From IMG/VR virus record IMGVR_UViG_3300045996_002890, positions 1-45,107 of that record: a DNA stretch of 45,107 nucleotides; one strand, 5' to 3'. Shown piece after piece: positions 24,480 to 41,604 of the stretch. Source of the DNA: a virus. The notes under the pieces were generated by a model, which saw only the letters and a program-made list of their open reading frames with translations, was not told where the DNA came from and searched no databases. How positions within the stretch are numbered: position 1 is the stretch's first letter; each line of letters begins with the position of its first letter. The translations under genes were made by a program, and so were the position numbers.

Positions 24480-24661
24480 GCCCGCTCGGGGAACCGCTCG
24501 GCGATCCACTTCAGCACGTCGGGTGTGGAGTAGACCCAGCCCATCGTGAGCTTGGTGCCGTCCGGCGCGCCCTTCTCGCGGACGAGCGCCTCGGCGTACT
24601 TGCGGGAGACGCCGAGGCGCTGGGCGATCTCGCTGATCCCCATCACGTCCGGCGCGGCCAC
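24476..24661 (-). CDS. AlpA/excisionase-like HTH protein B
   Basis: A 61-residue partner of the protein at 23669-23872: MGISEIAQRLGVSRKYAEAL, then KLTMGWVYSTPDVLKWI. Both share the order HTH, TLAMG/KLTMG strand, D-V helix. The start is the GTG at 24661; an ATG six codons later would keep the whole HTH. Candidate excisionase or regulator. Confidence 0.75.
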   Translation of the reverse strand: MAAPDVMGISEIAQRLGVSRKYAEALVREKGAPDGTKLTMGWVYSTPDVLKWIAERFPERA

Positions 24662-30670: not shown

Positions 30671-30921
30671 GCCGGATCGCCAGCATTCAGGCCCAGGTCT
30701 TCGACGACCTGTTCAACGACGGCATGCGGAAGGTGCGCGAGAAGCGTGGCCTGTCGCGCCGCCAGCTGGGCGAGCGGGTCGGCATGCCCGAGTACACGAT
30801 CGGCCAGATCGAGACCGGCTACGGCAAGCCGCGCCGGCGAAGCGCGACCGTCGGCGAGGCCATCGTGCTGGCCGAGGCGCTCGAAGCGAAGGTCGGCGAC
30901 CTGATCCGGGGTGAGTCGTGA
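30667..30921 (+). CDS. Xre-family HTH protein
   Basis: An 84-residue DNA-binding protein with a classical Cro/CI helix-turn-helix: MRKVREKRGLSRRQLGERVG then MPEYTIGQIETGYGKPRRRS, and the following helix VGEAIVLAEALEAKVGDLI. Possible early regulator. It directly precedes the recombination nuclease gene and may control it. Confidence 0.8.
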   Translation: MSRIASIQAQVFDDLFNDGMRKVREKRGLSRRQLGERVGMPEYTIGQIETGYGKPRRRSATVGEAIVLAEALEAKVGDLIRGES

Positions 30922-31766
30922 CCGCCGTCGAGCTGGCCCCGGGCGTCCATGAACTGCCCGAGGCTGAGTACCACGCCCGACCCGAGCTGTCCTCGACCGG
31001 CGCCCGGAAGCTGCTCGCCCCGTCGTGCCCCGCGCTGTTCCAGTACGAGCGCGAGCATGGCGGGCCGACCAAGCGCGTCTGGGAGATCGGCTCGGCCGCC
31101 CACAAGCTGGTGCTCGGCAGCGGCCCGGACCTCGTCCTCGTCGACAAGGCGCGCTGGGACACCAATGAGATCAAGGCCAAGCTCGCTGACATCCGCGAAG
31201 ACGGCGGCATCCCGCTCAAGCGGCCCGAGTACGACGCCGTGATCGCCATGGCTCAGGCCCTCGGTGAGCACCCGTTCGCGGCCAAGCTCTTCGAGCCCGG
31301 CACCGGCCAGGCCGAGCAGACGCTGATCTGGAAGGACAAGGAGACCGGCGTCATGTGCCGGGCCCTGCTCGACTGGCTGCGCTTCCCGATGCCCGGCTAC
31401 CGCCTCGTCGTGCCGGACTACAAGTCCTGCGCCAGCGCCGAGCCCGGCAAGTTCGCCCGGGCCATGGCCGACCACGGCTACCACATCCAGCTCGCCTGGT
31501 ACCTGGCCGGCATCCGCGCCCTCGACCTCGGCGACGACCAGGCGGTCGGGCTGCTGGTCGCGCAGGAGAAGACCCCGCCCTACCTCGTCACCGTGCTCCA
31601 ACCCGACCAGAGCGCGATGCGGATGGGCGAGATCCGGATGCGCGAGGCGCTGCGCACCTACGCCGAGTGCACCGCCTCGGGCGTCTGGCCGGGCTACGCC
31701 GAAGACGTCGTGCAGGCCGAGCTGCCGCCCTGGGAAACCCGAGAACTGAACGGAGTCATCTGGTGA
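30918..31766 (+). CDS. RecE-like PD-(D/E)XK exonuclease
   Basis: A 282-residue nuclease of the phage RecE/DUF3799 type, expected to resect double-stranded DNA ends for annealing. Visible motifs: H62 in IGSAAHKL, D152 in CRALLDWLR, D167-Y-K169 in VVPDYKSC, and Q191 with Y195 in YHIQLAWYLAG. It lies two genes upstream of a probable annealing protein, the usual exonuclease-annealase pairing. Start GTG overlaps the preceding stop. Confidence 0.88.
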   Translation: MTAVELAPGVHELPEAEYHARPELSSTGARKLLAPSCPALFQYEREHGGPTKRVWEIGSAAHKLVLGSGPDLVLVDKARWDTNEIKAKLADIREDGGIPLKRPEYDAVIAMAQALGEHPFAAKLFEPGTGQAEQTLIWKDKETGVMCRALLDWLRFPMPGYRLVVPDYKSCASAEPGKFARAMADHGYHIQLAWYLAGIRALDLGDDQAVGLLVAQEKTPPYLVTVLQPDQSAMRMGEIRMREALRTYAECTASGVWPGYAEDVVQAELPPWETRELNGVIW

Positions 31767-31963
31767 CTTACTTCAAGGTCAATATCCGGCTCGACGAGAT
31801 GACGCCGCTGGAGCCGAACGCCCAGGGCTACCCGCGCATGGACACCGACACCCTCGCCGACCTGACCCTCACGGGTTCGTCCGAAGAGGACGTGCTGTTC
31901 CAGGCCTCGAAGCACGTCCTGACGCTGCACGACGCCTACGAGAGCAAGAAGGACCCGCGATGA
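31763..31963 (+). CDS. Small protein between nuclease and annealase
   Basis: A 66-residue protein: VTYFKVNIRLDEMTPLEPNA, then DLTLTGSSEEDVLFQASKHV. Short strands and a helix; no Cys. GTGA and ATGA overlaps tie it to the recombination genes. Might assist them; inferred from position only. Confidence 0.6.
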   Translation: MTYFKVNIRLDEMTPLEPNAQGYPRMDTDTLADLTLTGSSEEDVLFQASKHVLTLHDAYESKKDPR

Positions 31964-32898
31964 CCAACGCTATCGACCGGCCCGCGACGGTCGTGCCCAC
32001 CCCGAGCCACGTCGGCCAGGCCACCGCGATCGAGCAGTCCCGCGCTGCCGCCGAGGTCGCCGCTGCCGTGCACGTCGCCCAGGCCAACCCGCGCAACATG
32101 CAGGCCGCCCTCGCCGAGATGCGCGAGAGCTGCCGCCAGATCCGCCTCGCCGAGCGCGCGTTCTTCCGGTACAGCCGGGGCGGAAACAACGTCACCGGCG
32201 CCACCGTCCACCTCGCCCGCGAGCTGGCCCGCTGCTTCGGCAACGTCCAGTACGGCATCGCCGAGCTGCGCCGTGACGACGCCGGCGGCTACTCCGAGAT
32301 GCAGGCCTACGCCTGGGATGTCGAGCGGAACACCCGGTCAGCGCAGATCTTCGTCGTGCCGCACGTCCGCGACACCAAGCAGGGCCAGAAGCAGCTGACC
32401 GACCTGCGCGACATCTACGAGAACAACGCCAACATGGGAGCCCGCCGCCTGCGCGCCGCGATCTGGGCCATCCTGCCGCCCTGGTTCGTCGACGAGGCCG
32501 AGGAGATCTGCAACAGCACGCTGGCCGACGGCGGCGGAGTGCCGCTGCCCAAGCGGATCGCGGACTGGATCGCCGCGTTCGGCCGCCAGGGCGTGTCCGT
32601 GATGCAGCTGGAGCAGAAGCTCGGCCGCGACTCGGGCCGCTGGACGGAACACGACGTCGCCCAGCTCTCGGTGATCGGCAAGTCGGTTGCCCGAGGCGAG
32701 ACGCGCATCGAGGACGAGTTCCCCGCCGAGCGCGTGACCGCATCGGAGCTGACTGCCGCAACGCCGAAGGCCAGGGCCGCCTGCGGGTTCTCGACGCCGG
32801 ACGGCGCGTGCACGCTGCCCGCCGGCCACCCGGTCGGCCCGGACCTCGACGGCTTCGACGGCCATGACGTCGTCCCGGGCGGTGGCACCGATGCGTGA
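31960..32898 (+). CDS. Probable single-strand annealing/recombination protein
   Basis: A 312-residue protein of a type I recall from actinophages next to RecE-like nucleases. Key stretches: IEQSRAAAEVAAAVHVAQAN, PRNMQAALAEMRESCRQIRL, AERAFFRYSRGGNNVTGATV, DLRDIYENNANMGARRLRAA and IWAILPPWFVDEAEEICNS. The C-terminal 50 residues add a Cys/His part (ACGFSTPDGACTLPAGH). A RecT-like role is inferred from partner and pattern; it was not tested against RecT structures. Confidence 0.65.
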   Translation: MTNAIDRPATVVPTPSHVGQATAIEQSRAAAEVAAAVHVAQANPRNMQAALAEMRESCRQIRLAERAFFRYSRGGNNVTGATVHLARELARCFGNVQYGIAELRRDDAGGYSEMQAYAWDVERNTRSAQIFVVPHVRDTKQGQKQLTDLRDIYENNANMGARRLRAAIWAILPPWFVDEAEEICNSTLADGGGVPLPKRIADWIAAFGRQGVSVMQLEQKLGRDSGRWTEHDVAQLSVIGKSVARGETRIEDEFPAERVTASELTAATPKARAACGFSTPDGACTLPAGHPVGPDLDGFDGHDVVPGGGTDA

Positions 32899-37103: not shown

Positions 37104-37231
37104 CCGAGGACCGCGACTACCACAACCAGGACTGCCGCAACCTGCTGCCGCTGGCGATCCTGTTCACCCTGTTCTACGCCCTGCCCCGGCTGGCGTGGGA
37201 CTCGTGGCGCGGCCGGCGAGGTGCCCGGTGA
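37100..37231 (+). CDS. Tiny hydrophobic protein
   Basis: A 43-residue protein, NLLPLAILFTLFYALPRLAW in the middle and a basic end RGRRGAR. GTG start and GTGA end overlaps fit the operon. Probably membrane-inserted. Confidence 0.5.
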   Translation: MTEDRDYHNQDCRNLLPLAILFTLFYALPRLAWDSWRGRRGAR

Positions 37232-37977
37232 AGCCGCGGCTGCTCGACCTGTTCTGCTGCGAGGGCGGCGCCGCAGCCGGCTACGTCGAGGCCGGCTTCG
37301 AGGTGCACGGCGTCGATCTGGTGCACATTGACCCGACAGAGCGGAAGAAGCAGACGCGGGCCATGCGCGCTCGCTACCTCGCCGCCGGCGGAACGTCCTT
37401 CACTGTTGCCGATGCCACGACGTTCCCGCTCGACGGCTTCGACGTCGTGCACGCCTCGCCGCCGTGCAAGGACCACACCGAGCTGGCCTCGCTGTCGGGC
37501 GGTGACGGCACGGGCTGGATGCTGCCGCACACCATTGGCCGGATAAGGGAATCCGGGCTTCCGTACGTCATCGAGAACGTGGTCAGCGCGAGCACGAAGC
37601 GGCACATGGATGGCGCCATCATGCTGTGCGGGTCCATGTTCGGCCTCGGGGCGCCTGGCACCGGATTTCGCCGCAACGGCGTAACGACGCACATCCCGCC
37701 GTGGCGGACGCTTCAGCGGCACCGCCTGTTCCTGACCTCGTTCCCCGTGCTGGTGCCGCCTGACCAGTGCTCAGGCAAGCCCGTGGGCGGGGTGTACGGC
37801 ACCGGCGGCGGCGGTCAGATGACGCGCGGCTACAAGTTCAACTCTGCCGAGTCGCGGCTGGCGATGCAGATGCCCTGGGCGTCGCGCAACGGCTGCTCGC
37901 AGGCCATCCCGCCGGCGTACACGCAGTTCCTCGGCGACCTGATGATGGCCGCCTTGAGCAGCGTAGGTGCCCGGTGA
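37228..37977 (+). CDS. DNA cytosine methyltransferase (C5 type)
   Basis: A 249-residue methylase: SAM motif LLDLFCCEGGAAAGYVEAGF, catalytic PPC at 78-80 (ASPPCKDHT), and ENV at 116-118 (LPYVIENVVS). C-terminal RHRLFLTSFPV resembles motif VIII. The short target-recognition region and compact size resemble phage orphan methylases. It likely modifies phage DNA to escape host restriction; no restriction enzyme gene is nearby. Confidence 0.88.
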   Translation: MKPRLLDLFCCEGGAAAGYVEAGFEVHGVDLVHIDPTERKKQTRAMRARYLAAGGTSFTVADATTFPLDGFDVVHASPPCKDHTELASLSGGDGTGWMLPHTIGRIRESGLPYVIENVVSASTKRHMDGAIMLCGSMFGLGAPGTGFRRNGVTTHIPPWRTLQRHRLFLTSFPVLVPPDQCSGKPVGGVYGTGGGGQMTRGYKFNSAESRLAMQMPWASRNGCSQAIPPAYTQFLGDLMMAALSSVGAR

Positions 37978-38213
37978 GCGACTCGATCAAGACCCAGCTG
38001 GACCGGGGTGAGTCGGTCAACGACGACCTGCGCGAGGTGGCCATCGCCCGGGTCAGCCGCGAGGCCATGGCCGACATGCTGCTCGACATGCTCGGCCTGG
38101 GCGAGGTCGAGGCCGTCGACCCGCTGTGCCCGTCGTGCCGCAAGCCGACACCCAGGTCCGGCATCTGCCGCCGCCTGAGCAAGTGCCGCGCCGACCGGGA
38201 GGCAGGCCGATGA
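37974..38213 (+). CDS. Small protein with zinc-ribbon end
   Basis: A 79-residue protein; first part helical (KTQLDRGESVNDDLREVAIA, REAMADMLLDMLG), then CPSCRKPTPRSGICRRLSKC, a likely zinc ribbon. GTGA overlap with the methylase gene. Confidence 0.65.
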   Translation: MSDSIKTQLDRGESVNDDLREVAIARVSREAMADMLLDMLGLGEVEAVDPLCPSCRKPTPRSGICRRLSKCRADREAGR

Positions 38214-38671
38214 TCGAGGTGACGAAAGAGATGGTGCAGGAGGTCTACTCCCGCATCGACTTCGTGAACCACGGCGACGACGGCATTGCCGAGGGCCTGA
38301 CCGCCGTGCTCGCCATCGTCGAGCGGAACTACACCATCACGCCGTACCGCGAGGGCGACTGGGCTGACCGCAAGTGCGACGGATGCGGTCGCTCGGTGGC
38401 GGCGCGGTCGAAGGTAGTGCGAGTGCTCTGCGTGGTCTGCCATCCGGCCGACCTCCCGCTAGGCCCGCACGAGCGTCCGGAAATGCTGTCGGATCGCCTC
38501 GGCTACCCGCCCGAGGTTGGCGATGAGGAATGGCGACGGCACCCGTTGTCCAAGGAGACGTGCTCCGAGACGCTCGAAACGAAGGGCGCGGTGGTCCGCT
38601 GCGGCAAGAAGCCGAACCACCTCGACAACGCCCACCTCGCCCGGCACGACGGCTGGGACGTGATCTGGTGA
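38210..38671 (+). CDS. Hypothetical protein with several Cys pairs
   Basis: A 153-residue protein. Helical start (MIEVTKEMVQEVYSRIDFVN), then KCDGCGRSVAARSKVV with CVVCHPADLP, and a second Cys/His part (CSETLETKGAVVRCGKKPNH, HLARHDG). Two possible metal sites. Function unknown. Confidence 0.65.
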   Translation: MIEVTKEMVQEVYSRIDFVNHGDDGIAEGLTAVLAIVERNYTITPYREGDWADRKCDGCGRSVAARSKVVRVLCVVCHPADLPLGPHERPEMLSDRLGYPPEVGDEEWRRHPLSKETCSETLETKGAVVRCGKKPNHLDNAHLARHDGWDVIW

Positions 38672-38853
38672 CGCCGCCGAAGAGCCGGGTCACCCCGCAC
38701 CTGTTCCGCCGTGACCCGCAGGTGCCGCCCGACATCAACGGCCACGGTGCCTGCGCCGATTGCCACCTGATCGGCCAGCCCGGCGACACCCACCACACCC
38801 TGCCCGAGCCGGTCGGCGACGTCCGCCAGCTGGCCGCCCACGAGGAGGACTGA
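38668..38853 (+). CDS. Small Cys/His protein
   Basis: A 61-residue protein with HGACADCHLIGQPGDTHHTL, a CxxC-His pattern, and an acidic end. GTG start overlaps the previous stop. Function unknown. Confidence 0.6.
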   Translation: MTPPKSRVTPHLFRRDPQVPPDINGHGACADCHLIGQPGDTHHTLPEPVGDVRQLAAHEED

Positions 38854-38856
38854 CCG

Positions 38857-39030
38857 ATGACCCGCTTTATGCACGCCCACGTCCACGCCGTCCTGACCGA
38901 CAACTCCGAGCCGGTGTCGGAGGATTTCTCAACCGAGGTCAGCGAGGAGGAGCCCGAAGAGGCCGCGCTCAAGCTGGCGGGCTGGCTCCGGGATCTCGCC
39001 GCGCAGGTCGAGCAGGGCGTCCGGGACTGA
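38857..39030 (+). CDS. Small acidic protein
   Basis: A 57-residue protein: RFMHAHVHAVLTDNSEPVSE, then an acidic helix EEEPEEAALKLAGWLRDLAA. CGAGGAGGACTGACC gives a good ribosome site. It precedes the adenine methylase gene. No known function. Confidence 0.55.
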   Translation: MTRFMHAHVHAVLTDNSEPVSEDFSTEVSEEEPEEAALKLAGWLRDLAAQVEQGVRD

Positions 39031-39061
39031 TGGTGGCCGGCGACTCGGACGGAGGCGAGCC

Positions 39062-39898
39062 GTGAAGCCGCCTATGCCGTACTTCGGCGGGAAGATCACC
39101 CTGGCGCCCCAAATCGCCGCGCTCTTCCCGGCGCACGGCCACTATGTCGAGCCCTTCGGCGGCAGCCTGGCGGTGCTGCTGGCCAAGCGCCCAGCGCCGC
39201 ACGAGACGGTCAACGACCTCGACGGCGACCTAATGAATTGGTGGCGCGTGCTACGCGACCGCCCGGACGAGCTGGCGCGCGTCTGTGCACTCACTCCGCA
39301 CTCGCGTGGAGAGCAGGTTGCCGCCTATGACCTGGCCGACTGCGACGACGATCTGGAGCGGGCCCGCCGGGTGTGGGTGCAACTAACCCAGGGACGTGCA
39401 GGGCTACGTCGTCAGACCGGCTGGCGGCACTACATCAAACCGTGTCGCGACTCCGGATCCGGGTCTATGCCCCACTACCTCCGGGGATACGTCGACCGAA
39501 TCGCTCCCGCGGCCGAGCGAATCCAGGCGGTCAGCCTGGAGAACCTGCCCGCGCTTGACCTGATCGCCAAGTACGGACGCGACCGCGGCGTGCTGCTGTA
39601 CGTCGACCCGCCGTACCTGTCGGCGGTCCGCGAGAACGGTACCTACCTGCACGAGATGGGCGACGAGCGCGAGCACCGTGAGCTCGCAGCGGCGCTCCAC
39701 GAGTGTGTGTCCACAGTGATCCTTTCCGGTTACGCCTCGGGCCTCTACGACCGCGAGCTCTACGCCGGCTGGGACCGCCACACCATGCGGGCAACTTCGG
39801 GGCACGGCAGCTCGCCGGGGCGCACGGAGGTGCTGTGGTCCAACCGCCCCCTCGGCACTCAACCGTCCTTATTCGACCACGGGAAAGGAGCCGCCTGA
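39062..39898 (+). CDS. DNA adenine methyltransferase, D12 (Dam-like)
   Basis: A 278-residue N6-adenine methylase. Motifs: YFGGK at 7-11, YVEPFGGSLAVL around 28-39, and DPPY at 182-185 (LLYVDPPYLSAVRENG). The order (SAM motif first, DPPY later) is the alpha/D12 class. Probably protects phage DNA or changes host regulation. GTG start with GGAGGCGAGCC. A two-stage hairpin directly follows its stop. Confidence 0.9.
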   Translation: MKPPMPYFGGKITLAPQIAALFPAHGHYVEPFGGSLAVLLAKRPAPHETVNDLDGDLMNWWRVLRDRPDELARVCALTPHSRGEQVAAYDLADCDDDLERARRVWVQLTQGRAGLRRQTGWRHYIKPCRDSGSGSMPHYLRGYVDRIAPAAERIQAVSLENLPALDLIAKYGRDRGVLLYVDPPYLSAVRENGTYLHEMGDEREHRELAAALHECVSTVILSGYASGLYDRELYAGWDRHTMRATSGHGSSPGRTEVLWSNRPLGTQPSLFDHGKGAA

Positions 39899-39903
39899 CA
39901 CCC

Positions 39904-39957
39904 GGCCGAATAGCGATACCGACTGCCCTGGGGAGCGATTCCCGGGGCTATTCGGCC
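39904..39957 (+). ncRNA. Two-stage hairpin with GCGA tetraloop
   Basis: Outer stem GGCCGAATAGC (39904-39914) with GCTATTCGGCC (39947-39957), exact 11 bp. Inside, CCCTGGGGA (39926-39934), loop GCGA, TTCCCGGGG (39939-39947 region) form a second stem of up to nine pairs with two G-U. An 11-base single-stranded stretch lies on the 5' side only. No T-run follows. A GNRA-capped element like this is more RNA-structure-like than a terminator. Confidence 0.55.
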
Positions 39958-40001
39958 ACCCACGTAATGGAACGGAACGCGATTCAGAGCACGAGGCGAC
40001 A

Positions 40002-40229
40002 ATGGCGATCAAGAACACAGCGACAGGCGGCGTGTTGGCGTATCGAACACGTGTCCACCTGGGAGAATGTGGTGCCCGGGAAAGGCGCTGCGAACGCCAG
40101 ATCCCGGGACTAAGGCTCCATTCCGTCATTACCCCGGAAGGAGACCTTGCGGTGACTATCGCATGGCTCAGCCCTCTGTCGCAGCCCCACCACGGCGTGT
40201 CATTTAGCACCATCCGGACCGGTGACTAG
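40002..40229 (+). CDS. Doubtful small protein upstream of initiator
   Basis: A 75-residue frame with a GAGGCGACA ribosome site before ATG and a TAG overlapping the next GTG start by one base (TAGTG), both points in favour. Codon use is less G/C-biased at third positions than neighbouring genes, and the frame contains a second hairpin, points against. No function or family seen. The stretch may instead be a structured non-coding leader. Confidence 0.35.
   Translation: MAIKNTATGGVLAYRTRVHLGECGARERRCERQIPGLRLHSVITPEGDLAVTIAWLSPLSQPHHGVSFSTIRTGD
40075..40108 (+). other. Second structured hairpin upstream of initiator
   Basis: CCCGGGA (40075-40081) with TCCCGGG (40102-40108), and inside it GGCG (40084-40087) with CGCC (40095-40098) around CTGCGAA. 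It lies about 120 bases before the replication gene. Confidence 0.5.
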
Positions 40230-40927
40230 TGGGCGCGACTAATGCACTCGCGGCGATCGAGCGCTTCGGCGGCCGAGTGCCCGCCACGTCTCTCGTGCTG
40301 CTCATCTACATGTCGCTCGTCTCCAAGGACGCCCACGACTGGCCGTACTGCCGACTCGGGCAGCACGCCCTTGCCGAGTTCGCCCTGCGCCGGCCCAACC
40401 CGGACGAGACGGATCTGCGCGCCGTCCAGCGCGCGCTCAAGCCGCTCCTCGACGCCGGGGCCGTGACCGTCGATCGTGCCGGGGCCCAGCGCTCCGACGG
40501 CAACGTGACCGCCCGGTACCGCCTGAACCTCCACGACCGCGCCGACAAGGCCCGCGCCGAATGGGAGGGAACACCCGACGGAAAGCGTCGGGTGTCTGAC
40601 CGCCGCAGAGATCCACAACACCCGACGAAAAGTGGCGGAGACACCCGACGAAAAGTGACGAGACACCCGACGGTTTCTGACGAGACACCCGACGAAAACC
40701 GTCGGCCTAAGGAGACAGGAGGAGACATGAGGAGCGATAAAACCAAGGAAGAAGGATCTTCTCAGACGGCCTCTCACCCTTCGCGCGAGATCGCTCCAAA
40801 CGTCGTCCCCTTCCGTCGCCCGAGCCTTGCCGCCGAGAACCTCGCCGAGGCCGCCGCCCGCGTCGCCAAGCGCAAGGCCGAGCACCGAGCCAGCCAGACC
40901 CCCCAAGCCACCGAGGAGATCTCGTGA
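40229..40927 (+). CDS. Putative replication initiator with internal iterons
   Basis: A 232-residue protein. The N-terminal 110 residues look like a winged helix of replication proteins: PATSLVLLIYMSLVSKDAHD, CRLGQHALAEFALRRPNPDE, LRAVQRALKPLLDAGAVTVD. The middle (about 113-165) is charged and is encoded by repeated DNA (TPDGKRR, HPTKSGGDTRRK, HPTVSDETPDEN). The C-terminus is a basic helix (AEAAARVAKRKAEHRA). The layout resembles lambda O, whose gene also contains the origin. No helicase gene was recognised, so host helicase loading is likely. GTG start. Confidence 0.7.
   Translation: MGATNALAAIERFGGRVPATSLVLLIYMSLVSKDAHDWPYCRLGQHALAEFALRRPNPDETDLRAVQRALKPLLDAGAVTVDRAGAQRSDGNVTARYRLNLHDRADKARAEWEGTPDGKRRVSDRRRDPQHPTKSGGDTRRKVTRHPTVSDETPDENRRPKETGGDMRSDKTKEEGSSQTASHPSREIAPNVVPFRRPSLAAENLAEAAARVAKRKAEHRASQTPQATEEIS
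40571..40694. repeat. Iteron array, probable replication origin
   Basis: Core ACACCCGACG at 40571-40580, 40618-40627, 40641-40650, 40663-40672 and 40685-40694. An inverted copy CGTCGGGTGT at 40586-40595 forms a hairpin with the first. The last four are spaced 23, 22 and 22 bases, about two helical turns; the first is 47 bases before the second. Just downstream the sequence becomes richer in A (GCGATAAAACCAAGGAAGAA near 40734), a possible unwinding region. Confidence 0.8.
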
Positions 40928-41604
40928 AGCCCTACTACGCCGACGAGGCGGTGACGCTCTATCTCGGCGACTGCCGCGAGATCACCGAGTGGCTCGCCGC
41001 CGACGTGCTGGTGACCGATCCGCCGTACGGCCGCAACTGGCGACAGGGTCGCCACTGGGACCCCGCCCACACCGACGACCGTCACCATGGCATCGCCGGA
41101 GACCTCGACACGACCGCCCGGGATGCGGTACTCGCGCTCTGGCACACGCGTCCCGCGCTGGCCTTCGGTGACCCGATGCTGCCTCCGCCTGCAGGCACCA
41201 AGCTGGTCGGCTTCTACCGCAAGCCGCCGAACGCAGGGACGCGCGGTGCGATCGGTGGCTACCGGCGTGACGTCGAGGTGTTCTACCTGCTGGGCCCGTG
41301 GCCATCCGGCCTCGGGGGACGGTCCAGCGTCGTCGCCACGGTCACCGGCTCGCAGGGCAACCCTCACAGCCCGCAGGGCCGGTACGACCACCCACACGCC
41401 AAGCCGGTCGACGTCATGGAGCAGCTGATCGACGCTTGCCCACCCGGCGTGATCGCCGACCCTTTCGCCGGTTCCGGCTCCACGCTGGTCGCCGCCCGCA
41501 ACCTCGGCCGCCGCGCAATCGGCGTGGAGCTTGAGGAGAGCTACTGCGAGACCATCGCCCGCCGCCTCGCGCAGGACGTGCTCCCGCTGGCGGCCCGGCC
41601 GTGA
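40924..41604 (+). CDS. DNA methyltransferase, N4/N6 beta class
   Basis: A 226-residue methylase with DPPY at 32-35 (VLVTDPPYGRNW) before the SAM motif DPFAGSGST at 179-187, then RRAIGVELEESYCE. That order defines the beta class, which methylates adenine N6 or cytosine N4. Overlaps the initiator gene stop (GTGA). Third methylase in the arm; no paired nuclease nearby. Confidence 0.9.
   Translation: MKPYYADEAVTLYLGDCREITEWLAADVLVTDPPYGRNWRQGRHWDPAHTDDRHHGIAGDLDTTARDAVLALWHTRPALAFGDPMLPPPAGTKLVGFYRKPPNAGTRGAIGGYRRDVEVFYLLGPWPSGLGGRSSVVATVTGSQGNPHSPQGRYDHPHAKPVDVMEQLIDACPPGVIADPFAGSGSTLVAARNLGRRAIGVELEESYCETIARRLAQDVLPLAARP

Follow-up and report, generated by a model that had tools for sequence, protein, structure and literature searches.

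The window analyzed here is the whole 45-kb stretch of DNA, which is a virus record. Its portal gene shows 73% DNA identity to Arthrobacter phages, and it encodes an integrase, an excisionase, exonuclease VIII, an HNH endonuclease and methyltransferases. On the best reading, the source is a temperate actinobacterial siphovirus, the hosts of which are high-GC soil-type bacteria. The locus under study is a gene for an O-like protein, within which a repeat array and a purine-skewed tract are located. The features are as follows (strand is given where one was assigned).

40229..40927, plus strand: O-like initiator gene, 232 amino acids with a GTG start, assigned from the ORF, a PHROG 391 match and relatives.
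40229..40543, plus strand: predicted N-terminal winged-helix domain, residues 1-105 (AlphaFold2, block pLDDT mostly 73-91, one block 63).
40571..40595: iteron 1, a perfect dyad ACACCCGACG-GAAAG-CGTCGGGTGT made of a direct and an inverted core, at an equal offset in the relatives L062, L063 and L064.
40598..40822, plus strand: linker of residues 124-198, predicted to be disordered (pLDDT under 50 for almost all of them).
40609..40619: conserved element AGATCCACAAC between iterons 1 and 2, also present in L063, L064 and L065.
40618..40640: iteron 2, ACACCCGACGAAAAGTGGCGGAG.
40641..40662: iteron 3, ACACCCGACGAAAAGTGACGAG.
40663..40684: iteron 4, ACACCCGACGGTTTCTGACGAG, with its centre in the opposite orientation.
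40685..40705: iteron 5, ACACCCGACG-AAAAC-CGTCGG, a dyad.
40707..40756, plus strand: purine-skewed low-stability tract, a putative unwinding element by composition and duplex stability, conserved as DNA.
40823..40897, plus strand: C-terminal helix, residues 199-223, as seen in the modelled secondary structure (blocks at pLDDT 53-74), a candidate contact with the host replisome.

Three DNA-methyltransferase-like genes (37228, 39062 and 40924) lie around the O-like gene and span 37228-41604; in the related contig L065, a methyltransferase-like ORF is also present upstream. Relatives of the neighbouring methyltransferases were inspected and set aside: no recognisable O-like gene was found upstream of the methyltransferase. 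Directly after a methyltransferase stop codon, in the gap of ~330 bp before the O-like gene, a perfect 11-bp inverted repeat (GGCCGAATAGC...GCTATTCGGCC, 39904-39957) with extra inner complementarity and no T-run is present; it is a possible terminator or regulatory hairpin. Farther upstream, at 30918-32898, an exonuclease VIII-like gene precedes a phrog_3657 gene, which may encode a RecT-type partner; the two perhaps form a recombination pair.

The original prediction had described the gene as coding for a winged-helix, initiator-like protein. This assignment held: AlphaFold2 predicts a winged helix in a model built from a seven-sequence alignment, and the PHROG 391 profile "replication initiation O-like" matches the window protein at 1.4e-5. 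The same profile matches the proteins of L062 (6.4e-7) and L066 (4.5e-5); L065 and L067 give weak matches and L063 gives none. The match is partial, covering profile positions ~49-181 of 298, which correspond to the winged helix and the linker. Most of the DNA that codes for linker residues 124-198 consists of iterons 2-5 and the purine tract. In a scan of seven members, none matched Pfam Phage_rep_O, even with E values up to 1, or NCBIfam; for the window ORF, all Pfam and NCBIfam families stayed below the cut-off. A sequence search of solved structures with the initiator gave no match, and a Foldseek search of the PDB gave nothing below 0.1, only weak MarR/ArsR-like matches. The best viral structural match is an uncharacterised protein of Microbacterium phage Megan (BFVD A0A649VM01, E=1e-5).

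Six exact ACACCCGACG cores lie in the gene, at 40571(+), 40586(-), 40618(+), 40641(+), 40663(+) and 40685(+). Thus, the five direct cores and one inverted core predicted between 40571 and 40694 are all present at their positions, and the spacing of 22-23 bases proposed for the last four is measured as steps of 23, 22 and 22 bp. Elsewhere in the 45-kb window, the core occurs exactly only once more, as an isolated copy at 24517(-), and ACACCCGACG is the sole 10-mer in the window with at least five non-overlapping copies in 130 bp. In 20,000 synonymous redraws of codons 114-160, weighted by the gene's own codon usage, at most three cores arose by chance, as compared with the six observed. The perfect palindrome at 40571-40595 is formed by copies 1 and 2 together; the last copy, CCGACG-AAAAC-CGTCGG, is a dyad in part. 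Therefore, the repeat unit is an inverted repeat of ~19-25 bp; in the window, its middle copies retain mainly one half. In the window alone the excess of dyads is not significant (3 versus 0.94, reached in 8% of shuffles). When the family is pooled, dyads with a 5-bp centre form a peak, with 37 as against 4-18 for spacers without that centre.

Used as a single query, the window protein found no relatives in phages, plasmids, viral contigs, genome contigs or 395 actinomycete genomes. Matches to an exact triple-core pattern were rejected, being unrelated coding or low-complexity repeats only. The pattern CCCGACGAAAA-N6-14-CCCGACG led to the first true relative, L043, which encodes a 42%-identical protein and carries its own array (L043 and L066 are one contig). 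Alignment-based searches of viral contigs yielded L062 (76%), L063, L064, L065, L066, L067, L074, L075, L076, L082 and L083, and actinomycete genomes yielded L069, L070, L071 and L072. With the near-identical pair L063 and L064 counted once, the relatives comprise ten further viral contigs and four actinomycete genomes. In every relative, repeats lie behind the winged-helix domain, mostly as dyads with a 5-bp centre, and in most members the last copies are typically 22-25 bp apart. L072 has just three recognisable copies, and the array of L075 was partly caught by the scan. The family is rare: two actinomycete orders, searched in 246 and 250 genomes, yielded one genome each, and sequence-level relatives were absent among 50,697 phage records.

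The array is followed by the A-richer stretch that had been pointed out in the original prediction. Purines make up 82% and A+T 52% of this tract (40707-40756); the genome has ~69% GC. When 60-bp stretches of the window are ranked by duplex stability, the tract lies within the second least stable one. The 66-bp neighbourhood of the tract is unique in the window in joining such A+T content with such strand asymmetry. In L065 the tract is the same DNA, read in a different frame. The least stable stretch of the whole locus lies behind the array in L062, L063, L065, L082, L083 and L070, and in other relatives the stretch behind the array is close to the least stable; the exceptions are L067, L069 and L072, which have no outstanding tract. 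GC skew along the contig showed no clear turn and gave no usable signal. Separately, a strong Shine-Dalgarno-like sequence, AGGAGGAGAC, with an in-frame ATG (codon 167) behind it, is found at 40714-40729. Translation might start there internally and give a C-terminal product of 66 aa; the ATG is retained in L062 and absent in L063 and L065.

Between iterons 1 and 2, the sequence AGATCCACA (40609-40617) matches the DnaA box TTATCCACA at 7/9 positions, which makes it a weak box; it is spelled with the A/T-ending codons GAT CCA CAA. Convincing DnaA boxes were not found in the window. A sequence scan detected perfect boxes on the minus strand at the arrays of L074 (two, 2869-2889), L076 (2815-2823), L083 (2854-2862) and L069 (just behind the array), and none in ~124 kb of control DNA. 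The boxes at the arrays of four relatives suggest that DnaA may help in part of the family; the window itself has only the 7/9 box. DnaB_C and IstB (DnaC-type loader) domains were found neither in the window nor in the records of L062, L064, L067 and L074, which are possibly incomplete.

A winged-helix protein that binds repeats in its own gene could also be a regulator, and the array could be a set of operators through which transcription is repressed or tuned, with no role in replication. Winged-helix folds are frequent in regulators, and the matches in the PDB fold search, weak as they are, are MarR/ArsR-like. However, the array lies 340-480 bp into the gene, or behind the gene in L070 and L069, and so is not located at a promoter. 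Moreover, a destabilised tract with strand asymmetry accompanies the array in most members, the PHROGs matched by the protein are those of replication initiators, and perfect DnaA boxes stand at the array in four relatives. We consider operators unlikely.

The repeats had been predicted to force a repeated protein segment, HPT/TPDE. The repeats do lie within the gene, but a single repeated peptide is not what they encode: in the window, L062-L064 and L066, all three frames are used for the core, which in the window gives the unrelated peptides TPDG/TPDEN, HPTK/HPTV and DTRRK. The offsets of the iterons are identical in the window, L062, L063 and L064. In the window, GC3 is 0.90 before the array, 0.53 in the array, 0.50 in the next 66 nt and 0.86 thereafter; the drop in the array was seen in all seven sequences tested, and that in the tract in most of them. 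Silent changes are suppressed as well. When the window is compared with L062, the fraction of identical codons among those for the same residue is 0.63 for the N-terminal part, as against 0.90 for the iterons and 0.94 for the tract (Fisher 1.8e-4, iterons and tract taken together). Between the window and L066 it is 42% in the N-terminal part, 82% in the array and 100% in the tract (p 2.9e-4). The suppression is not significant for the pairs window-L063 (p=0.12) and window-L065 (p=0.25), and L062-L065 shows none.

The outer letters of the half-sites vary between phages (ACACC, ACGTA, ACGCC, GCACC, GTGCA, GGGGG and others) and largely agree inside each phage, as is expected if one binding protein reads all copies. 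Half-sites ending in GACG occur in 8 of 8 members that have an Arg in the predicted recognition helix and in 1 of 6 that do not (p=0.003; the pattern was spotted post hoc and the statistic ignores shared descent). This association would fit self-recognition by the initiator. In L070 the gene stops within the first copy, so that nearly the whole array stands behind the stop codon, and in L069 it stops within the array, most of which stands behind the stop codon. Thus, most of the array is non-coding in these two genomes. They give the strongest support to the earlier claim that the DNA role dominates the coding one. The three-frame reading of the core, the fall in GC3, the suppressed silent changes, the agreement of half-sites within each phage and the arrays behind stop codons argue that selection acts on the DNA. 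At the level of sequence comparison, they support the view that evolution preserves the DNA sites and not the peptide spelled there.

These observations bear on the possibility that the array is a protein-level tandem repeat, that is, a flexible linker grown by slippage, of which the DNA regularity is a by-product. The stretch is predicted to be disordered and is repetitive, and where triple-core patterns occur at other places in genomes, most of them are coding repeats of this sort. However, three frames are used and the spacings, which are not multiples of three, are exactly conserved. With the collapse of GC3, the suppressed silent changes and the mostly non-coding arrays of L070 and L069 also against it, this explanation is very improbable. 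Equally improbable is that the array serves as a centromere-like element or in packaging or recombination: such sites, too, can consist of short repeats next to a gene for a DNA-binding protein, but an integrase and an excisionase are encoded, no gene for partition stood out among those scanned, the structural genes are distant, and the low-stability tract and the initiator match favour an origin. Finally, the dyads could act as mRNA hairpins (an attenuator or processing signals), and dyad 1 does fold at -20 kcal/mol (z=-5.1); since the middle copies in the window are half-dyads, the helical spacing is conserved, many copies conserve one half-site and not the pairing, no T-run follows, and an Rfam search gave no match, this reading is also very improbable.

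The locus is very probably a lambda-type replication origin inside its own initiator gene, with a probability of about 0.87 as judged from sequence. The lambda-O layout put forward in the original prediction is supported by the protein family, the predicted fold, the helical phasing, the conservation, the frame independence, the GC3, the silent changes and the duplex stability. The array, its DNA-level conservation, the unstable tract, the linker and the family match are established by the sequence. By analogy with lambda, we infer that the initiator binds the array and that the tract opens; helicase recruitment and the actual start site we infer as well. In the proposed mechanism, the winged-helix initiator, probably a dimer, would bind the five dyad iterons, which are about two helical turns apart. 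The bound initiator would wrap or strain the DNA, and the adjacent tract at ~40707-40756 would open. The host replicative helicase would then be loaded on the open tract, with the C-terminal helix of the initiator as the likely contact. Since the sites have to remain within the gene, the iteron stretch would encode a disordered linker, the residues of which hardly matter. The protein would thus work like O, and common descent with O is not implied, given the absent Pfam Phage_rep_O match.

It is possible, at odds somewhat below even, that the family represents a distinct class of actinophage origin. This would be a self-contained, lambda-like initiator-plus-origin cassette without need for a phage loader. 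Its initiator, aided in part of the family by host DnaA at the boxes of the array, might recruit host DnaB directly; half-site and recognition helix might co-evolve in each phage, and the array might slip past the stop codon.

The origins of actinobacterial phages are poorly known. The combination of a winged-helix gene, dyad iterons and a purine tract offers a sequence rule that predicts an origin in a lineage for which the 50,697 phage records gave no sequence-level relatives. The locus may serve as a clean case in which a DNA signal overrides the protein sequence, and the family provides ready initiator/site pairs for studying the co-evolution of recognition. It also raises the question of how the host helicase is loaded by phages that themselves have no recognisable loader. 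Relative to the lambda kind, the new elements are that no loader of the IstB/DnaC type was found and that the border between gene and array is flexible.

Lambda O possesses a DNA-binding N-terminal domain and a separate C-terminal part, which are joined across an iteron-coded stretch. The modelled window protein appears to be built in the same way, with an N-terminal domain of DNA-binding type and a C-terminal part on either side of an iteron-coded linker. In lambda, O dimers bind iterons that are inverted repeats and lie in mid-gene, and the adjoining A+T-rich tract has nearly all its purines on one strand (PMC5043065, PMC7466680). The window shares with ori-lambda and the lambdoid origins of Stx phages the mid-gene inverted-repeat iterons and, next to them, a tract of low stability whose purines lie on one strand. 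Unlike lambda, the window has no Pfam Phage_rep_O match and no DnaB or IstB/DnaC-type partner was found in it; its period is 22-23 bp, its dyads have a 5-bp centre, and its tract is ~50% A+T in a 69% GC genome. Some of its relatives further differ from lambda in having DnaA boxes or most of the array behind the gene. The locus also resembles the iteron origins of the plasmids P1, RK2 and R6K in its phased putative initiator sites, its putative A+T-rich unwinding element and, in some relatives, the DnaA boxes beside the array (PMC5043065). The closest precedent among actinophages is the group of mycobacterial RepA prophages (Miko, Rachaly and others), for which a lambda-like origin upstream of or within repA has been suggested by the authors, and no repeat motifs were reported in the regions examined there (PMC7157519). 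These prophages, like the window, are actinobacterial and have an HTH initiator (PMC7157519); they are maintained as plasmids, whereas the phage of the window encodes Int and Xis.
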